Origin: Clostridia bacterium
GTDB lineage: Bacteria; Bacillota; Clostridia; Oscillospirales; Acutalibacteraceae
Assembly: GCA_017503135.1 (NCBI GenBank)
Contig: JAFVTQ010000002.1
Location: 1 to 64,000, forward strand
Length of the DNA stretch: 64,000 nt
Reading direction: 5' to 3'
In this document: piece after piece, positions 1,127 through 47,876 of the stretch
How the letters are laid out: each line of letters starts with the position of its first letter
Position numbering within the stretch: the first letter of the stretch is position 1
The notes under the pieces: model-generated
The model's database searches: none
What the model saw: the letters and a program-made list of their open reading frames with translations, nothing else
Told to the model about the DNA's origin: nothing
Position numbers and translations under genes: made by a program

Positions 1127-3205
1127 TTAGTCTCTCTTGCTTCTTTCAGAAATGATGCTTTCAGAAATTGACTTAGGAACTTCTTTGTATCCGTCTGGTT
1201 CCATTACGTACTGACCACGGCCCTGTGTCTTAGAACGGAGGTCTGTTGCATAACCGAACATTTCTGAAAGTGGAACTCTTGCGTTAATCTGCTTAACGCC
1301 TGAGCGGTCCTCAAAGCCCTGAATTTCGCCACGACGGCTATTAAGGTCACCGATAACGTCACCCATATATTCTTCAGGAGTAATAACTACAACCTTCATA
1401 ATAGGTTCAAGGATAACAGGGTTTGCCTTCTTAGCAGCATCTTTGAATGCCATTGAACCGGCAATCTTAAACGCCATTTCAGAAGAGTCAACTTCGTGGT
1501 ATGAACCATCGTAAAGAGTAACCTTTACGTCAACAACGCCATAGCCTGCAAGTACACCTGACTGCATAGCACCCTGGATACCGTCGTCAACTGCTTTGTG
1601 GTATTCCTTAGGAATAGCACCACCAACGATGTTGTTTACGAACTCGTAACCGCCATCTGGATTTGGTTCAATATTAATCTTAACGTGACCGTATTGACCT
1701 TTACCACCTGACTGACGAGCATATTTTGTGTCAGAAGATGAAGCTGAACGGATTGTTTCTCTGTAAGCAACCTGTGGTTTACCTACGTTTGCTTCAACTT
1801 TGAATTCACGAAGAAGACGGTCAACGATGATTTCAAGGTGAAGTTCACCCATACCAGCGATGATTGTTTGTCCTGTTTCTTCATCTGTATAGCTACGGAA
1901 TGTTGGGTCTTCTGCAACAAGTTTTGAAAGTGCGATACCCATTTTTTCCTGACCAGCTTTTGTTTTTGGTTCGATAGCAACGCTGATAACTGGTTCTGGG
2001 AAGTTCATTGATTCAAGGATAATTGGGTGTTTCTCATCACAAAGAGTATCACCTGTTGTTGTGTTCTTAAGACCAACAACGGCAGCAATATCACCAGCAT
2101 AAACTGTTTCAATGTCTTCACGGTGGTTAGCGTGCATCTGAAGAATTCTACCCATTCTTTCTTTGTTGTCTTTAACTGTGTTATAAACAGATGTACCAGC
2201 ATTAACTGTACCTGAATATACACGGAAGAAACAAAGTGTACCAACGAATGGGTCGTTAGCAATCTTAAATGCGAGAGCTGCAAATGGCTCGTCGTCTGAT
2301 GAGTGTCTAACTTCTTCCTCTTCTGTATCTGGGTTAACACCCTTGATAGCTTCGATGTCTGTTGGAGCAGGCATGAAGTCAACGATAGCATCGAGAAGTG
2401 GCTGAACACCCTTGTTACGATATGAAGTACCGCAGCAGATTGGAACGATTTCGTTAGTAAGTGTAGCCTTACGGATAACTGACTTGATTTCGTCAACTGT
2501 GAGTTCTTCACCGTCGAAATATTTCATCATAAGTTCCTCGTCGAGTTCAGCAACTGATTCGATAAGGTTGTTACGATATTCTGCAGCTTTATCAACCATA
2601 TCAGCTGGAATTTCTTCAATACGAACATCTTTACCCATATCATCATAATAAACGATAGCGTTATTATTGATAAGGTCGATGATGCCCTTAAATGAGCTTT
2701 CTTCACCGATTGGGAGCTGAATTGGAACTGCGTTACAGTTAAATCTTTCTTTAACCATGTCAAGAACACGGTAGAAGTTAGCACCTAAAATGTCCATCTT
2801 ATTAACATAAATCATTCTAGGAACTTTGTATTCGTCAGCCTGACGCCAAACTGTTTCAGACTGAGGCTCAACACCACCCTTTGCGCAAAGAACAGTTACA
2901 GAACCGTCAAGTACGCGAAGTGAACGCTGAACTTCAACTGTGAAGTCAACGTGTCCAGGAGTGTCGATGATATTGATACGATGGTCTTTCCAGAAACATG
3001 TTGTAGCAGCAGATGTGATTGTGATACCACGTTCCTGCTCCTGAGCCATCCAGTCCATTGTTGCTGAACCGTCATGAGTCTCACCGATTTTGTGGTTAAC
3101 ACCTGTGTAATAGAGAATTCTCTCTGTTGTAGTTGTTTTACCAGCGTCGATATGAGCCATGATACCAATATTTCTTGTTTGTTCAAGAGATACTTTTCTT
3201 GGCAT
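1127..3205 (-). CDS. fusA: Translation elongation factor G
   Basis: EF-G drives GTP-dependent translocation of tRNA and mRNA on the ribosome and ribosome recycling with RRF. The 692-residue product has the usual full length. It begins [20 protein letters not shown], with G1 [13 protein letters not shown] near residue 17, DTPGHVDF (G3) near 82 and NKMD (G4) near 136, followed by domains II to V ending in the conserved region around [13 protein letters not shown] strong site, TAGGAGG, precedes the ATG. The gap to rpsG is 27 bp, consistent with one transcript in the order rpsL, rpsG, fusA, tuf. Nothing looks degenerate. Confidence 0.98.
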
Positions 3206-39287: not shown

Positions 39288-39974
39288 CTATTTTATTATA
39301 TTAAGTATTTCATTTATATCTTTGATTTCATAATCAATTTTTAAATCGGTTTTATTTTCAAGGTTAAAGGGGTTATACCAACAACAGAGAATGCCTGCAT
39401 TATTGCCACCTTTTATATCACTTGTGAGAGAATCACCAATAATCATCACTTCGTCATTTTTGAACTCACCTATTTTAGCTTCAACTGCATCAAAAAACTC
39501 AACACTTGGTTTTTCAAAACCAATTTCATCAGAAATAAATATATCATCGAAAATGTCAATGAGTCCTGACTGCTTAAGCTTTCTCTGTTGGGCAATTATT
39601 GTGCCGTTTGTGACTGCATATTGCTTGCATTTACCTTTAAGAGCCATCACAGTTTCAAGGGCATTATCGCAAGGAAAGGATTTGTCACCAAGTCGCATCT
39701 GATATTCGTCGTTAAACTTATCAACATCATTAAACTCGATGTTTTCTGCTTTGAAAAATTCAACAAATCGGTCAGTCAAAACCTGTTGTTTTGTAATTTC
39801 GTTACGTTCTAATCTTTCCCAATATTTACGATTAATTTTTGAATATCTTAAGAGCATTTCGTCGGTGCATTCACCTAAACCGAATATTTCAAAGCATTTT
39901 CTGATGCCATATTCTTCGGCTTTAGAAAAATCAAGAAGTGTTCCGTCAACATCCCAAAGCAAAATTCTTATCAT
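39288..39974 (-). CDS. HAD-family nucleotidase, YjjG-like
   Basis: 228 residues. HAD motif I LLWDVDGTLLDF (DVDGT, nucleophile Asp), motif II VTNGT, motif III lysine in IGFEKPSVEFF and motif IV MIGDSLTSDIKGG. The cap insertion KINRKYWERLERNEITKQQVLTDRF is that of YjjG, which dephosphorylates pyrimidine nucleoside monophosphates including damaged ones. Its ATG overlaps the stop of mntP by four bases (ATGA), so it is translationally coupled to it. The link to manganese is perhaps only transcriptional. Confidence 0.9.
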   Translation of the reverse strand: MIRILLWDVDGTLLDFSKAEEYGIRKCFEIFGLGECTDEMLLRYSKINRKYWERLERNEITKQQVLTDRFVEFFKAENIEFNDVDKFNDEYQMRLGDKSFPCDNALETVMALKGKCKQYAVTNGTIIAQQRKLKQSGLIDIFDDIFISDEIGFEKPSVEFFDAVEAKIGEFKNDEVMIIGDSLTSDIKGGNNAGILCCWYNPFNLENKTDLKIDYEIKDINEILNIIK

Positions 39975-40537
39975 AATATTTCAAGTCCTTCCAAAAAGAA
40001 TTTCACGCCCATAAGTACAAGGACAAGACCGCCTGTGAGTTCTGCTTTATTCTTATATTTAGCGCCGAATTTGTGACCTATGAACACGCCTATTGCAGAG
40101 AGTAACCCTGTGATTACACCTGTTAAAACGATTACTGTAATTGCTTCATTTCTTTCATATTCAAATGCAAAAGTAACACCAACTGCAAGAGCGTCAATGC
40201 TTGTTGCGATTGCAAGAGCTGTTAATTCTTTCAAATTAAGTTTCAAAGCACAACAATCACAATCCTCTTCTTTTTCAAAGGATTCTTTTATCATTTTGCC
40301 ACCGATAAAGCCGAGCAAAATAAATGTAATCCAATGGTCAACACTTGCAACATATTGGGCAAACTGAGAGCCGATAAACCAACCTATAAGTGGCATTCCC
40401 GCCTGAAATCCACCAAAGAAAAGTGCAATTAGCCCCATTTGTTTAACATCAAGTTTTCGCATATTAAGACCTTTGCAAATGGAAACTGCAAAAGCGTCCA
40501 TTGCAAGTCCTGTTGCTATTATCAATAACTCAAACAT
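39971..40537 (-). CDS. mntP: Manganese efflux pump MntP
   Basis: 188 residues, six helices arranged as two repeats: LLIATGLAMDAFAVSICKGL near the start and ATSIDALAVGVTFAF in the second half, each with the conserved Asp (AMDAFA, SIDALAVG) used for Mn2+ export. Between them is a short cytoplasmic loop with the cysteines CDCC. It protects against excess manganese. No yybP-ykoY manganese riboswitch is recognisable upstream; instead the upstream interval is filled by a MITE-like element, so the source of its promoter is unclear. Confidence 0.93.
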   Translation of the reverse strand: MFELLIIATGLAMDAFAVSICKGLNMRKLDVKQMGLIALFFGGFQAGMPLIGWFIGSQFAQYVASVDHWITFILLGFIGGKMIKESFEKEEDCDCCALKLNLKELTALAIATSIDALAVGVTFAFEYERNEAITVIVLTGVITGLLSAIGVFIGHKFGAKYKNKAELTGGLVLVLMGVKFFLEGLEIL

Positions 40538-40555: not shown

Positions 40556-40857
40556 AAAGACTCAAAAGGGTGTCTCACATAGGGATTTAACAGCCTTAAA
40601 TCAATGATTTTGGCACAGAACTTCGTTAAAACGCTTGAAACCCGTCAGGGTTCCTACGCATTTATGCCTTATTCTGCACACAAACTAATATGATTTAAGG
40701 TGCAAAGCAGTTTTAATCCATATAATTTTCGTTTAGACAAAACGACAAAAATCTCGCAAGGCTGACGCCTTGTGAGGTTTTTTCGTAAAGTATTAACGGA
40801 AAGAATAGGATTAAAACCTATTCAATCCCTAAATGAGACACCCTAAAATGAGTCTTT
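40556..40857 (-). terminator. spo0A terminator, split by an inserted element
   Basis: Arms AAAGACTCA (40556-40564) and TGAGTCTTT (40849-40857) would form a terminator stem with an A-rich loop and a run of T on the minus strand, if the 278-bp element between them were absent. It lies 68 bases past the spo0A stop. Confidence 0.65.
40567..40844. mobile_element. MITE-like element with terminal inverted repeats
   Basis: The element begins AGGGTGTCTCA (40567-40577) and ends TGAGACACCCT (40834-40844), a perfect 11-bp inverted terminal repeat that extends imperfectly through AGGGATT/AATCCCT. It is flanked by AAA(A) on both sides, a likely short target duplication. Inside are smaller hairpins: CTCGCAAGGC/GCCTTGTGAG (40754-40777), GAATAGG/CCTATTC near 40803-40823 and AACCC/GGGTT near 40650. 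It encodes no protein, so it must have been mobilised by a transposase elsewhere. It is the only copy in the window. Confidence 0.75.
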
Positions 40858-40924
40858 AATTTTTGCATTATTTAAACATTGAAATGATAACATTTACACT
40901 ATTTGTTGTCAAGATAATACCGTT

Positions 40925-41686
40925 TTATGAAATTTTTAAACGAAGTCTTAATTTATCACTTATCATTGCAATAAATTCTGAGTTTGTTGGTTTGCCACGA
41001 GTATTTTGAATTGTATATCCAAAATATGACGATAAAACATCTACATCTCCTCTATCCCAAGCAACTTCAATGGCATGACGGATTGCGCGTTCAACTCTTG
41101 AAGATGTTGTTGAATACATTTTCGCAACAGTTGGATATAAGACCTTTGTAACTGAACTCATCATTTCACGGTCATTGATTGAGAGAACGATTGCTTCACG
41201 AAGATACTGATACCCTTTTATATGTGCAGGGACACCAATTTGGTGCATAATCTCGCTGACCGTCATCTGCAAATCAGTTGTATCCTGAAGCTTGCTCACA
41301 TCACCCTGAGATTTTGACCAGCCTGTAAGTTGATTTATTCTTTGTGCTAACATCTGCACATCAAAAGGTTTTAAAAAGTAATAATCTGCACCTGCTTGTA
41401 AAAGTTCTTGTTCAAATCTTGGATTATCTGCACTTGACATTACCATCATTAGTGGTTTTGCTTCTTTCTCATTTAACTGATTAATTACACCCAATGCGTC
41501 TAAATTGGACATAAAAGCATCCATCACCACAACATCAACATTCGCACTTTCAGCTCGTGAAAGAACCGCTTTACCATCTTTTTGCACAAGGATTACATCG
41601 CATCCATAAGTTCTCAACACATTTGCGCAGTTCTTACCGAACTCACTTCCCTCACCCGTTAATAATACTTTTAAATTGTTGCTCAT
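40925..41686 (-). CDS. spo0A: Sporulation transcription factor Spo0A
   Basis: 253 residues. Residues 5-125 are a receiver domain: phosphoacceptor D56 (VVVMDAFMS), S84 and K106 (FLKPFD) are present. The acidic pair that holds Mg2+ (normally ADD) reads T-G-E (10-12), so one Asp is lost. The C-terminal Spo0A domain is highly conserved: [34 protein letters not shown] (recognition helix) and EVAWDRGD. Phosphorylated Spo0A binds 0A boxes and commits the cell to sporulation; a perfect 0A heptamer lies upstream of its own gene. The ribosome site is ACGGAGGG. spoIVB, the usual neighbour, is not adjacent. Confidence 0.96.
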
Positions 41687-47649: not shown

Positions 47650-47876
47650 AAAAAACGCCTTCATCTGCAAAAACACAGACGAAGGCGAATAATCGCGGTT
47701 CCACTTCGATTTATAACTCAAATACTTTAACGCAGCTAACGGATGTGTATTTCCCCACATCGACTCACGAATGCACTTCACAAGAGCTTTTTAATATGGG
47801 CTTTCAGCCGGTGACCCATAATCTCTGATAAAAACACTATTGCTACTCTTTTCGGTCATAGTCTTTATAAATATTA
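47650..47876 (-). promoter_or_regulatory. Cysteine T-box riboswitch ahead of cysE-cysS
   Basis: The transcript contains the T-box core AGTGGAACCGCG (minus strand, 47694-47705), the Stem I part GGTCACCGGCTGAAAG and a likely specifier loop GAAGTGCATTC with TGC, the Cys codon, followed by A. A terminator hairpin (47656-47687) ends the leader. Uncharged tRNA-Cys should bind and prevent termination. Both target genes belong to cysteine metabolism, which agrees with the specifier. Confidence 0.9.
47656..47687 (-). terminator. T-box-controlled terminator
   Basis: Stem CGCCTTC/GAAGGCG, extended by TCTG/CAGA beyond a bulge, then TTTTTTATTTT on the minus strand. It competes with the antiterminator formed around TGGAACCGCG. 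Confidence 0.9.

Follow-up and report, generated by a model that had tools for sequence, protein, structure and literature searches.

We describe a 278-bp mobile element that lies between the two arms of a terminator hairpin in a 64,000-nucleotide stretch of DNA from a Clostridia bacterium of the family Acutalibacteraceae (assembly GCA_017503135.1, contig JAFVTQ010000002.1, positions 1 to 64,000; this whole stretch is called the window below). Copies of the element are dispersed in this and related genomes, and orthologous sites occur from which it is absent; many copies are located in terminator loops; and the fold of the element is kept by compensatory change, with opposite strand bias in the two hairpin units that compose it. 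We consider it probable that these are the properties of a non-autonomous, two-hairpin element that is moved in trans, lands in terminator loops at AA or TT and duplicates those 2 bp. Trans mobilisation, recognition of the fold, homology of the two units and an effect on termination and on mntP are the parts of this reading that we infer from the observations presented here. The features of the locus, in coordinates of the window, are:

39971..40537, minus strand: mntP-like manganese efflux pump gene, 188 aa; NCBIfam match below cut-off
40556..40564, minus strand: host terminator arm AAAGACTCA (plus-strand letters), the 3' arm in mntP sense, leading into the T-run
40565..40566, no strand: AA left of the element, the same as the AA on its right (40845-40846); presumed 2-bp target duplication
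40567..40844, plus strand: mobile element, 278 bp, no ORF of at least 60 aa, drawn with domain A on the left
40567..40577, plus strand: left inverted terminal repeat AGGGTGTCTCA; the closing stem continues to 40587
40592..40701, minus strand: domain A, hairpin unit facing domain B; matched by model R1 on the minus strand at 47.9 bits
40709..40819, plus strand: domain B, hairpin unit, the basis of model R1
40747..40782, no strand: internal bidirectional terminator-like hairpin (A-run, covarying stem, AAGGC-TGAC-GCCTT tip, T-run)
40834..40844, minus strand: right inverted terminal repeat TGAGACACCCT; the closing stem starts at 40824
40849..40857, minus strand: second arm of the host terminator, TGAGTCTTT (plus-strand letters)
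40884..40912, minus strand: promoter-like site TTGACA-17-TATCAT, 11 of 12 bases, with TG before the second hexamer; presumed mntP promoter
40925..41686, minus strand: spo0A, 253 aa

The complementarity of the 11-bp ends is perfect, and from them the inverted repeat widens to 36-nt arms that are 81% complementary. No ORF of at least 60 aa in the list compiled for the window overlaps the element, so that both the sequence and the ORF list agree with the initial annotation, which had reported a 278-bp non-coding element with perfect 11-bp inverted ends. Its further proposal, that the sequences outside the element would pair once the element was removed, also holds: the outer arms form a 9-bp stem. 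AA stands immediately to the left of the element and AAAA immediately to the right. Read in mntP sense, the 304-nt strand folds at -127.8 kcal/mol, as compared with -63.1 +/- 5.0 kcal/mol for 100 shuffles (z -13), and two terminator-like sites are counted at the window locus where 0.9 +/- 0.9 are expected. The window copy contains no Rfam match at or above a gathering score. Elsewhere in the window a T-box leader occurs at 47678-47868 on the minus strand (Rfam RF00230, 93.5 bits).

The description of the sequence as a MITE-like element situated exactly inside a terminator loop was supported by copies at other places and by empty sites. A search with the 278-bp sequence retrieved a second copy in the window's own genome (G000, 1.2 Mb and 75% complete), which lies at G000:C4 and is 86% identical, as well as copies at other loci in relatives. 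In a first survey some match, in several cases a short one, was found in 11 of 59 genomes including the window's own; the genomes surveyed are mostly drafts. One relative, G016, has about eleven copies, a figure estimated from 17 half-copies broken at contig ends plus two complete copies; another, G020, has three, of which two are identical across 278 bp and have unrelated flanks and host stems; and a third, G033, has five copies of 277-278 bp forming a subfamily approximately 67% identical to the window copy. A pattern scan of named genomes added 278-bp copies in Eubacterium sp. RGIG3408 and Oscillospiraceae SIG572, together with five further matches that did not resemble the element and were rejected. 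The pattern GGGTGTCTCAN{1,3}TAGGGATT was found in the window's own genome only among 245 genomes of the order, and neither plasmids and phages (by blastn) nor viral contigs (by pattern) contained a match to the element.

Empty sites were identified first at the spo0A-mntP interval itself. A spo0A match is present in 35 of the 39 genomes of the genus, and the DNA downstream of spo0A was read for 29 relatives; by eye, mntP is the next gene in eight of these, and each of the eight shows a hairpin with T-run from which the element is absent, several of them with closely similar hairpin arms such as AAGACTCATG...CATGAGTCTTTTTT. At four further sites, where both flanks were matched and adjacent in another species, a terminator-like hairpin again stands free of the element, and at one of them the stem is nearly identical in the occupied (GGACAGAG) and the empty (GGATAGAG) state. 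The remaining site pairs had one flank matched only, or other DNA in between. Together with the second copy and the copies at other loci, these empty sites contradict the notion of a fixed 278-bp sequence that every relative would carry at this place and at no other.

A covariance model of domain B, termed R1 (111 positions, 36 pairs), revealed a wider distribution. At an E-value of 0.001 it matches 36 of 394 genomes of the order, representing 23 of 168 genera; 27 of the 36 are matched at E of 1e-6 or lower, and eight contain at least nine matches each. The background, judged from 70 other fetched loci (236,072 bases), consists of one strong match and nothing else above 29.5 bits. That strong match, at positions 196-304 of L129 (G010:C59, within the genus; 67.5 bits), is probably a real relative, because the G010 locus had also been partially matched in the first survey. 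The wider set comprises 86 analysed loci, from which 15 of 80 stretches fetched by place (contig ends) and nine of 30 automatic loci (own or known G033 copies, or contig ends) had been left out; inverted ends were found in 57 loci from 24 genomes and not in the other 29. While the sequence drifts, the length stays within 268-284 bp in 53 of the 57 elements with ends. Some of the loci in which ends were not detected contain short forms without domain A, such as L262 and L312; by eye, L312 too lies within a terminator stem.

Departures from the usual form were encountered as well. A 53-bp miniature whose ends stand almost back to back lies between convergent genes at G016:C5:34131-34183 (L094, positions 3131-3183), and at L294 (G103:C30:12620-13171) the ends are 552 bp apart, with a second hairpin element apparently nested in domain A. 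Loci L324, L325, L248 and L329 (G304 and G405) represent a distant subfamily with terminal repeats GGGAA-CTCTGAATAA and a small or missing domain A. In L245 and L321 the terminal repeats resemble tRNA 3' ends (GGGTTCGACTCCCGTCAGCC); ARAGORN detected no tRNA gene in 11 loci.

The placement of copies within terminators was assessed in two sets. Among 15 full-length copies the stem score across the insertion is at least 9 in 13 and at least 10 in 11, the latter level being reached by 4.0% of 20,000 positions drawn at random from the window and fetched loci and by 10.5% of 210 mismatched flank pairs. The exceptions that have no stem are the second copy in the window's own genome (G000b), which lies between divergent genes, and the copy in G026. 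According to ORF calls, ten of the 15 copies are flanked by convergent genes, four by tandem and one by divergent genes. Among the half-copies of G016, five of eight left ones share an arm of at least 9 bases with one of the nine right ones. In the wider set a stem with T-run marks the insertion in 33 of 56 testable copies, compared with 3.1% of intergenic and 1.2% of random positions, a count in which ten of the 57 elements had been trimmed inward as the helix search had entered the outer stem; all ten are among the 33 matches, one of them (L291) was wrongly trimmed, and leaving out all ten gives 23 of 46. By the chosen criterion, stem and T-run are missing in the other 23 of the 56 copies.

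Equal AA or TT dinucleotides border 11 of the 15 full-length copies on both sides, and equal dinucleotides of any kind border 32 of the 57 elements in the wider set (AA in 15, TT in 14), as against 17% of mismatched pairs in a control computed on untrimmed ends. From these flanks we infer a 2-bp target duplication (AA/TT), with the qualification that equal flanks could reflect loop composition alone, because the pairs of occupied and empty sites all come from different species.

The fold of the element was derived with RNAalifold from 14 copies and consists of 86 pairs, comprising a closing stem and two hairpin domains; 97.7% of cells are paired, and in 36 of the 86 pairs both partners have changed. 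On four of five measures of covariation none of 500 shuffles scored as high; the fifth, which concerns further pair types, is not above the shuffles (84 of 500). Slid structures score far worse than the predicted one, which is itself derived from the alignment on which it is scored. The terminal repeats vary among subfamilies yet stay complementary, and the stem of the internal terminator-like hairpin of domain B likewise covaries.

The two domains fold in opposite senses. Among 52 elements less than 93% identical, the plus strand is the more stable in 49 for domain B, in 9 for domain A and in 27 for the element as a whole, so that the preferred folding strand of each hairpin unit is the one read outward from that unit's end. 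This opposite bias accords with each end being recognised as a folded unit, and one functional RNA across the element is disfavoured because the element as a whole has no strand preference. Among pairs of domain B (70 distinct rows from the first 73 of 124), G-U outnumbers A-C by 209 to 21, an excess that is partly biased in that the model picks the better strand, while the opposite sign in domain A is not biased in this way. In 19 of 87 sources, model R1 additionally recognises domain A, next to domain B and on the other strand. Direct comparison of the interiors of the two halves gives weak similarity, with 8 of 61 elements, the window copy not included, exceeding all 200 shuffles. Domain A is thus probably the inverted homologue of domain B, a statement we put no more firmly because the similarity of the interiors is weak.

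Regarding the host site, the initial annotation had named it the spo0A terminator, and this designation was not supported. The hairpin's T-run directly adjoins the mntP start, and the interval from the spo0A stop codon to the hairpin contains a promoter-like site; we therefore prefer the name mntP leader terminator, a position to which both this site and the loci of relatives assign it. One promoter-like site was counted in the stretch, no more than chance would give (mean of 3.3 in shuffles), and the case for an mntP leader is built on the quality of the site and on the relatives' loci, not on the count. Leaders of L117 and L118, inspected by eye, contain a similar TTGACA...TAT-AT sequence. 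The host hairpin thus seems to be the mntP leader terminator rather than the spo0A terminator, and it may in addition stop spo0A transcripts.

In five of the eight relatives with the spo0A-mntP order, a manganese-riboswitch-like motif, GAGGGAGTAGTCGGC ... GTCAACATACTGACC, was seen by eye before the terminator of the mntP leader; the corresponding spo0A-mntP gaps are L116 (G020), L119 (G016), L120 (G007), L121 (G021) and L123 (G012). By eye the motif is absent from the window's genome and from G014, G027 and G030, in which the terminator is kept. Scores with the Rfam manganese riboswitch are 22 bits for L116, 15.5 for L119 and 22.4 for L120, all below the gathering score of 45, and L121 and L123, judged by eye, have no Rfam match at E 0.1. 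Because the Rfam scores fall under this threshold we call the motif riboswitch-like only, and a true manganese riboswitch in these leaders was not accepted.

The mechanism we propose would begin with two facing hairpin units of about 110 nt each, probably homologous and closed by the inverted terminal repeats, whose folded ends, rather than any fixed terminal sequence, would be recognised by an enzyme acting in trans. Insertion of the element would then take place at AA or TT within the loop of an intrinsic terminator, with duplication of those two bases. Host arms and T-run would remain outside the element, and domain B would add a bidirectional terminator; for these two reasons little harm would be expected at the ends of genes. 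It is plausible that termination survives the insertion, by way of the lengthened outer hairpin and the internal terminator-like hairpin, and in the window, where the element landed in the leader terminator of mntP, fewer transcripts should read through into that gene.

The term MITE-like is used in a restricted sense, because no autonomous partner or intact transposon sharing the ends was found in the genomes scanned, which are mostly drafts. Neither G033 nor four genomes of another genus yielded a longer copy bounded by the same ends. Outside known copies, exact AGGGTGTCTCA gave four isolated, chance-like matches in the 39 genomes of the genus. Across G033, G026 and G061, AGGGCGTGCRGRT with one mismatch allowed gave four pairs in G033 and one in G026, all spaced by about 278 bp, as well as a single end of the fifth G033 copy and unpaired single matches. 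In the four genomes of another genus, GGGCGYGCAAATYAGGGAT with two mismatches gave pairs 266-304 bp apart, one pair at 552 bp (L294) and one tiny pair in G103:C149, and no pairs 1-4 kb apart. Among 1093 ORFs around copies there is no transposase-like recurrent neighbour; the sole ORF cluster shared by four genomes looks like an ABC transporter. PF13751, which we take to be the IS1182-type DDE domain, occurs in one of the 39 genomes of the genus, with ends unrelated to those of the element. The kinship of the ends to those of a known insertion sequence, tentatively suggested in the initial annotation, accordingly found no support. In G020 and G016 (L199 and L201), 250-aa RAYT-like genes are located amid CACAAGGAACCGTCCCC repeats, apparently as a separate REP system.

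Several other origins of the element were weighed against these data. It is possible, though in our view doubtful, that it is a classical MITE of a stem-loop-targeting DDE transposase like that of IS1272 (IS1182 family), with a partner now lost or absent from the drafts. In accounts of the staphylococcal elements IS1272 and TnSha1 (PMC5678879, PMC4923244), stem-loops, several of them terminators, are targeted by structure and not by sequence, the target stem is deleted or replaced with no target duplication, and TnSha1 is a transposase-bearing element of 3,022 bp. Such a choice of terminators and other hairpins resembles the insertion of our element into stem-loops, and perfect inverted ends with apparent 2-bp duplications would suit DDE chemistry. 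Yet the element is gene-free and 278 bp long, and, where IS1272 as so described replaces the target stem, it keeps the arms in most copies and has equal AA/TT flanks in many; the scarcity of PF13751 and its unrelated ends weigh in the same direction, and this origin offers no obvious reason for compensatory change throughout the element or for strand-biased folding.

Rather unlikely, in our judgement, is the interpretation of the element as a giant REPIN, whereby a RAYT (REP-associated tyrosine transposase, HUH/Y1) would bind the strand-specific hairpin of each unit and insert the strand at the single-stranded loop that an extruded terminator presents. Facing units with opposite strand bias and mutual model matches are what it would predict, RAYT-like genes are present in G016, G020 and G033 (NCBIfam REP_Tyr_transpos, 79.6 bits in G016 and 65.7 in G033, against a cut-off of 80), and one G033 copy lies about 2.1 kb from the only Y1 match of that genome. 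The RAYT genes of L199, L201 and L208, however, are bordered by other repeats (CACAAGGAACCGTCCCC..., GTAGGGGCGAGC...) and not by the element, and two RAYT proteins compared with the 1093 neighbouring ORFs had no match there. Copies occur in genomes with no Y1 match (G000, 75% complete; G026; G018), while a Y1 match is present in 23 of the 39 genomes of the genus, many of which have no known copy. To our knowledge, equal dinucleotides on both sides, as with the AA/TT flanks seen here, are not expected of Y1 enzymes, and the sequence evidence that the two units are homologous is weak.

That the sequence is a cellular structured RNA or an mntP regulatory leader, and not mobile, is very improbable: strong covariation and a leader position at which five relatives carry the riboswitch-like motif (by eye, three with sub-threshold Rfam scores) would be in keeping with it, but copies stand beside unrelated genes, 10 of 15 between convergent ones, empty sites exist, the whole element shows no strand preference (27 of 52), and the window copy is under all Rfam thresholds. 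Scarcely credible is a lengthening of terminators on the spot, through local inverted duplication or through gene conversion, in view of the identical 278 bp at two G020 loci whose flanks and host stems are unrelated, the equal dinucleotides at the joins and the element-free hairpins at orthologous places, although conversion among copies seems to occur, because L085 (G033), which shares its site with L082 (G026) in another species, has a centre like those of other G033 copies.

We thus favour a non-autonomous two-hairpin element moved in trans, and note its likeness to known small repeats. EFAR repeats of Enterococcus faecalis, reportedly described by Venditti et al. in 2007, are said to be without ORFs, mostly about 170 bp long and composed of two stem-loops in an L shape, with modular sizes of 42-650 bp in one species; they reportedly integrate into stem-loop targets, part of the target stem being kept and most of the stem-loop deleted. 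By that description they share with our element the want of an ORF, the two hairpins and the stem-loop targets, whereas our element is near 278 bp, keeps both arms and occurs in many genera. REPINs, which are associated with RAYT transposases, are ORF-less arrangements of facing hairpin units dispersed outside genes. The element likewise consists of two facing, strand-specific hairpin units; unlike REPINs, it has units several times longer than REPs, perfect inverted ends, equal flanks in many copies, two units only weakly similar to each other, and no RAYT found beside the copies examined or correlated with them. EFAR repeats, as reported, and REPINs appear nearest in architecture. The element would then be of a structure-targeting, MITE-like kind that differs from IS1272/TnSha1, from REPINs and from EFAR repeats as reported. 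Other small repeats described in the literature (PMC2229807, PMC3049150) are comparable: targets of YPAL/RU-2 in Yersinia span or adjoin dyad symmetry, with duplications of 3-26 bp, and of the pneumococcal SPRITE/RUP, SPRITE resembles a terminator and RUP duplicates at TA. These accounts report no element that carries an internal terminator and is inserted in terminator loops. No description of the element family was found in the open-access literature.

More speculatively, and we regard this as unlikely, the element might exemplify a widespread mobile class for which both substrate and target are secondary structures, and which enters terminator loops as two facing, strand-specific DNA hairpins in folded single-strand form by means of an enzyme outside the known transposase families. 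On this reading, terminal sequences (AGGGTGTCTCA, GGGGTCTCTCA, AGGGCGTGCGG, AGGCGGTTGG and others) would be free to drift while the fold is kept. Annotations may well miss the element, because the window copy falls under every Rfam threshold. Ends that change in sequence and keep their fold would provide a clear test case for structure-directed transposition, and the identity of the enzyme would show whether insertion of hairpin into hairpin is a separate chemistry. Terminator loops would constitute a safe harbour for an element equipped with a terminator of its own and would thereby account for its spread at little harm in compact genomes.
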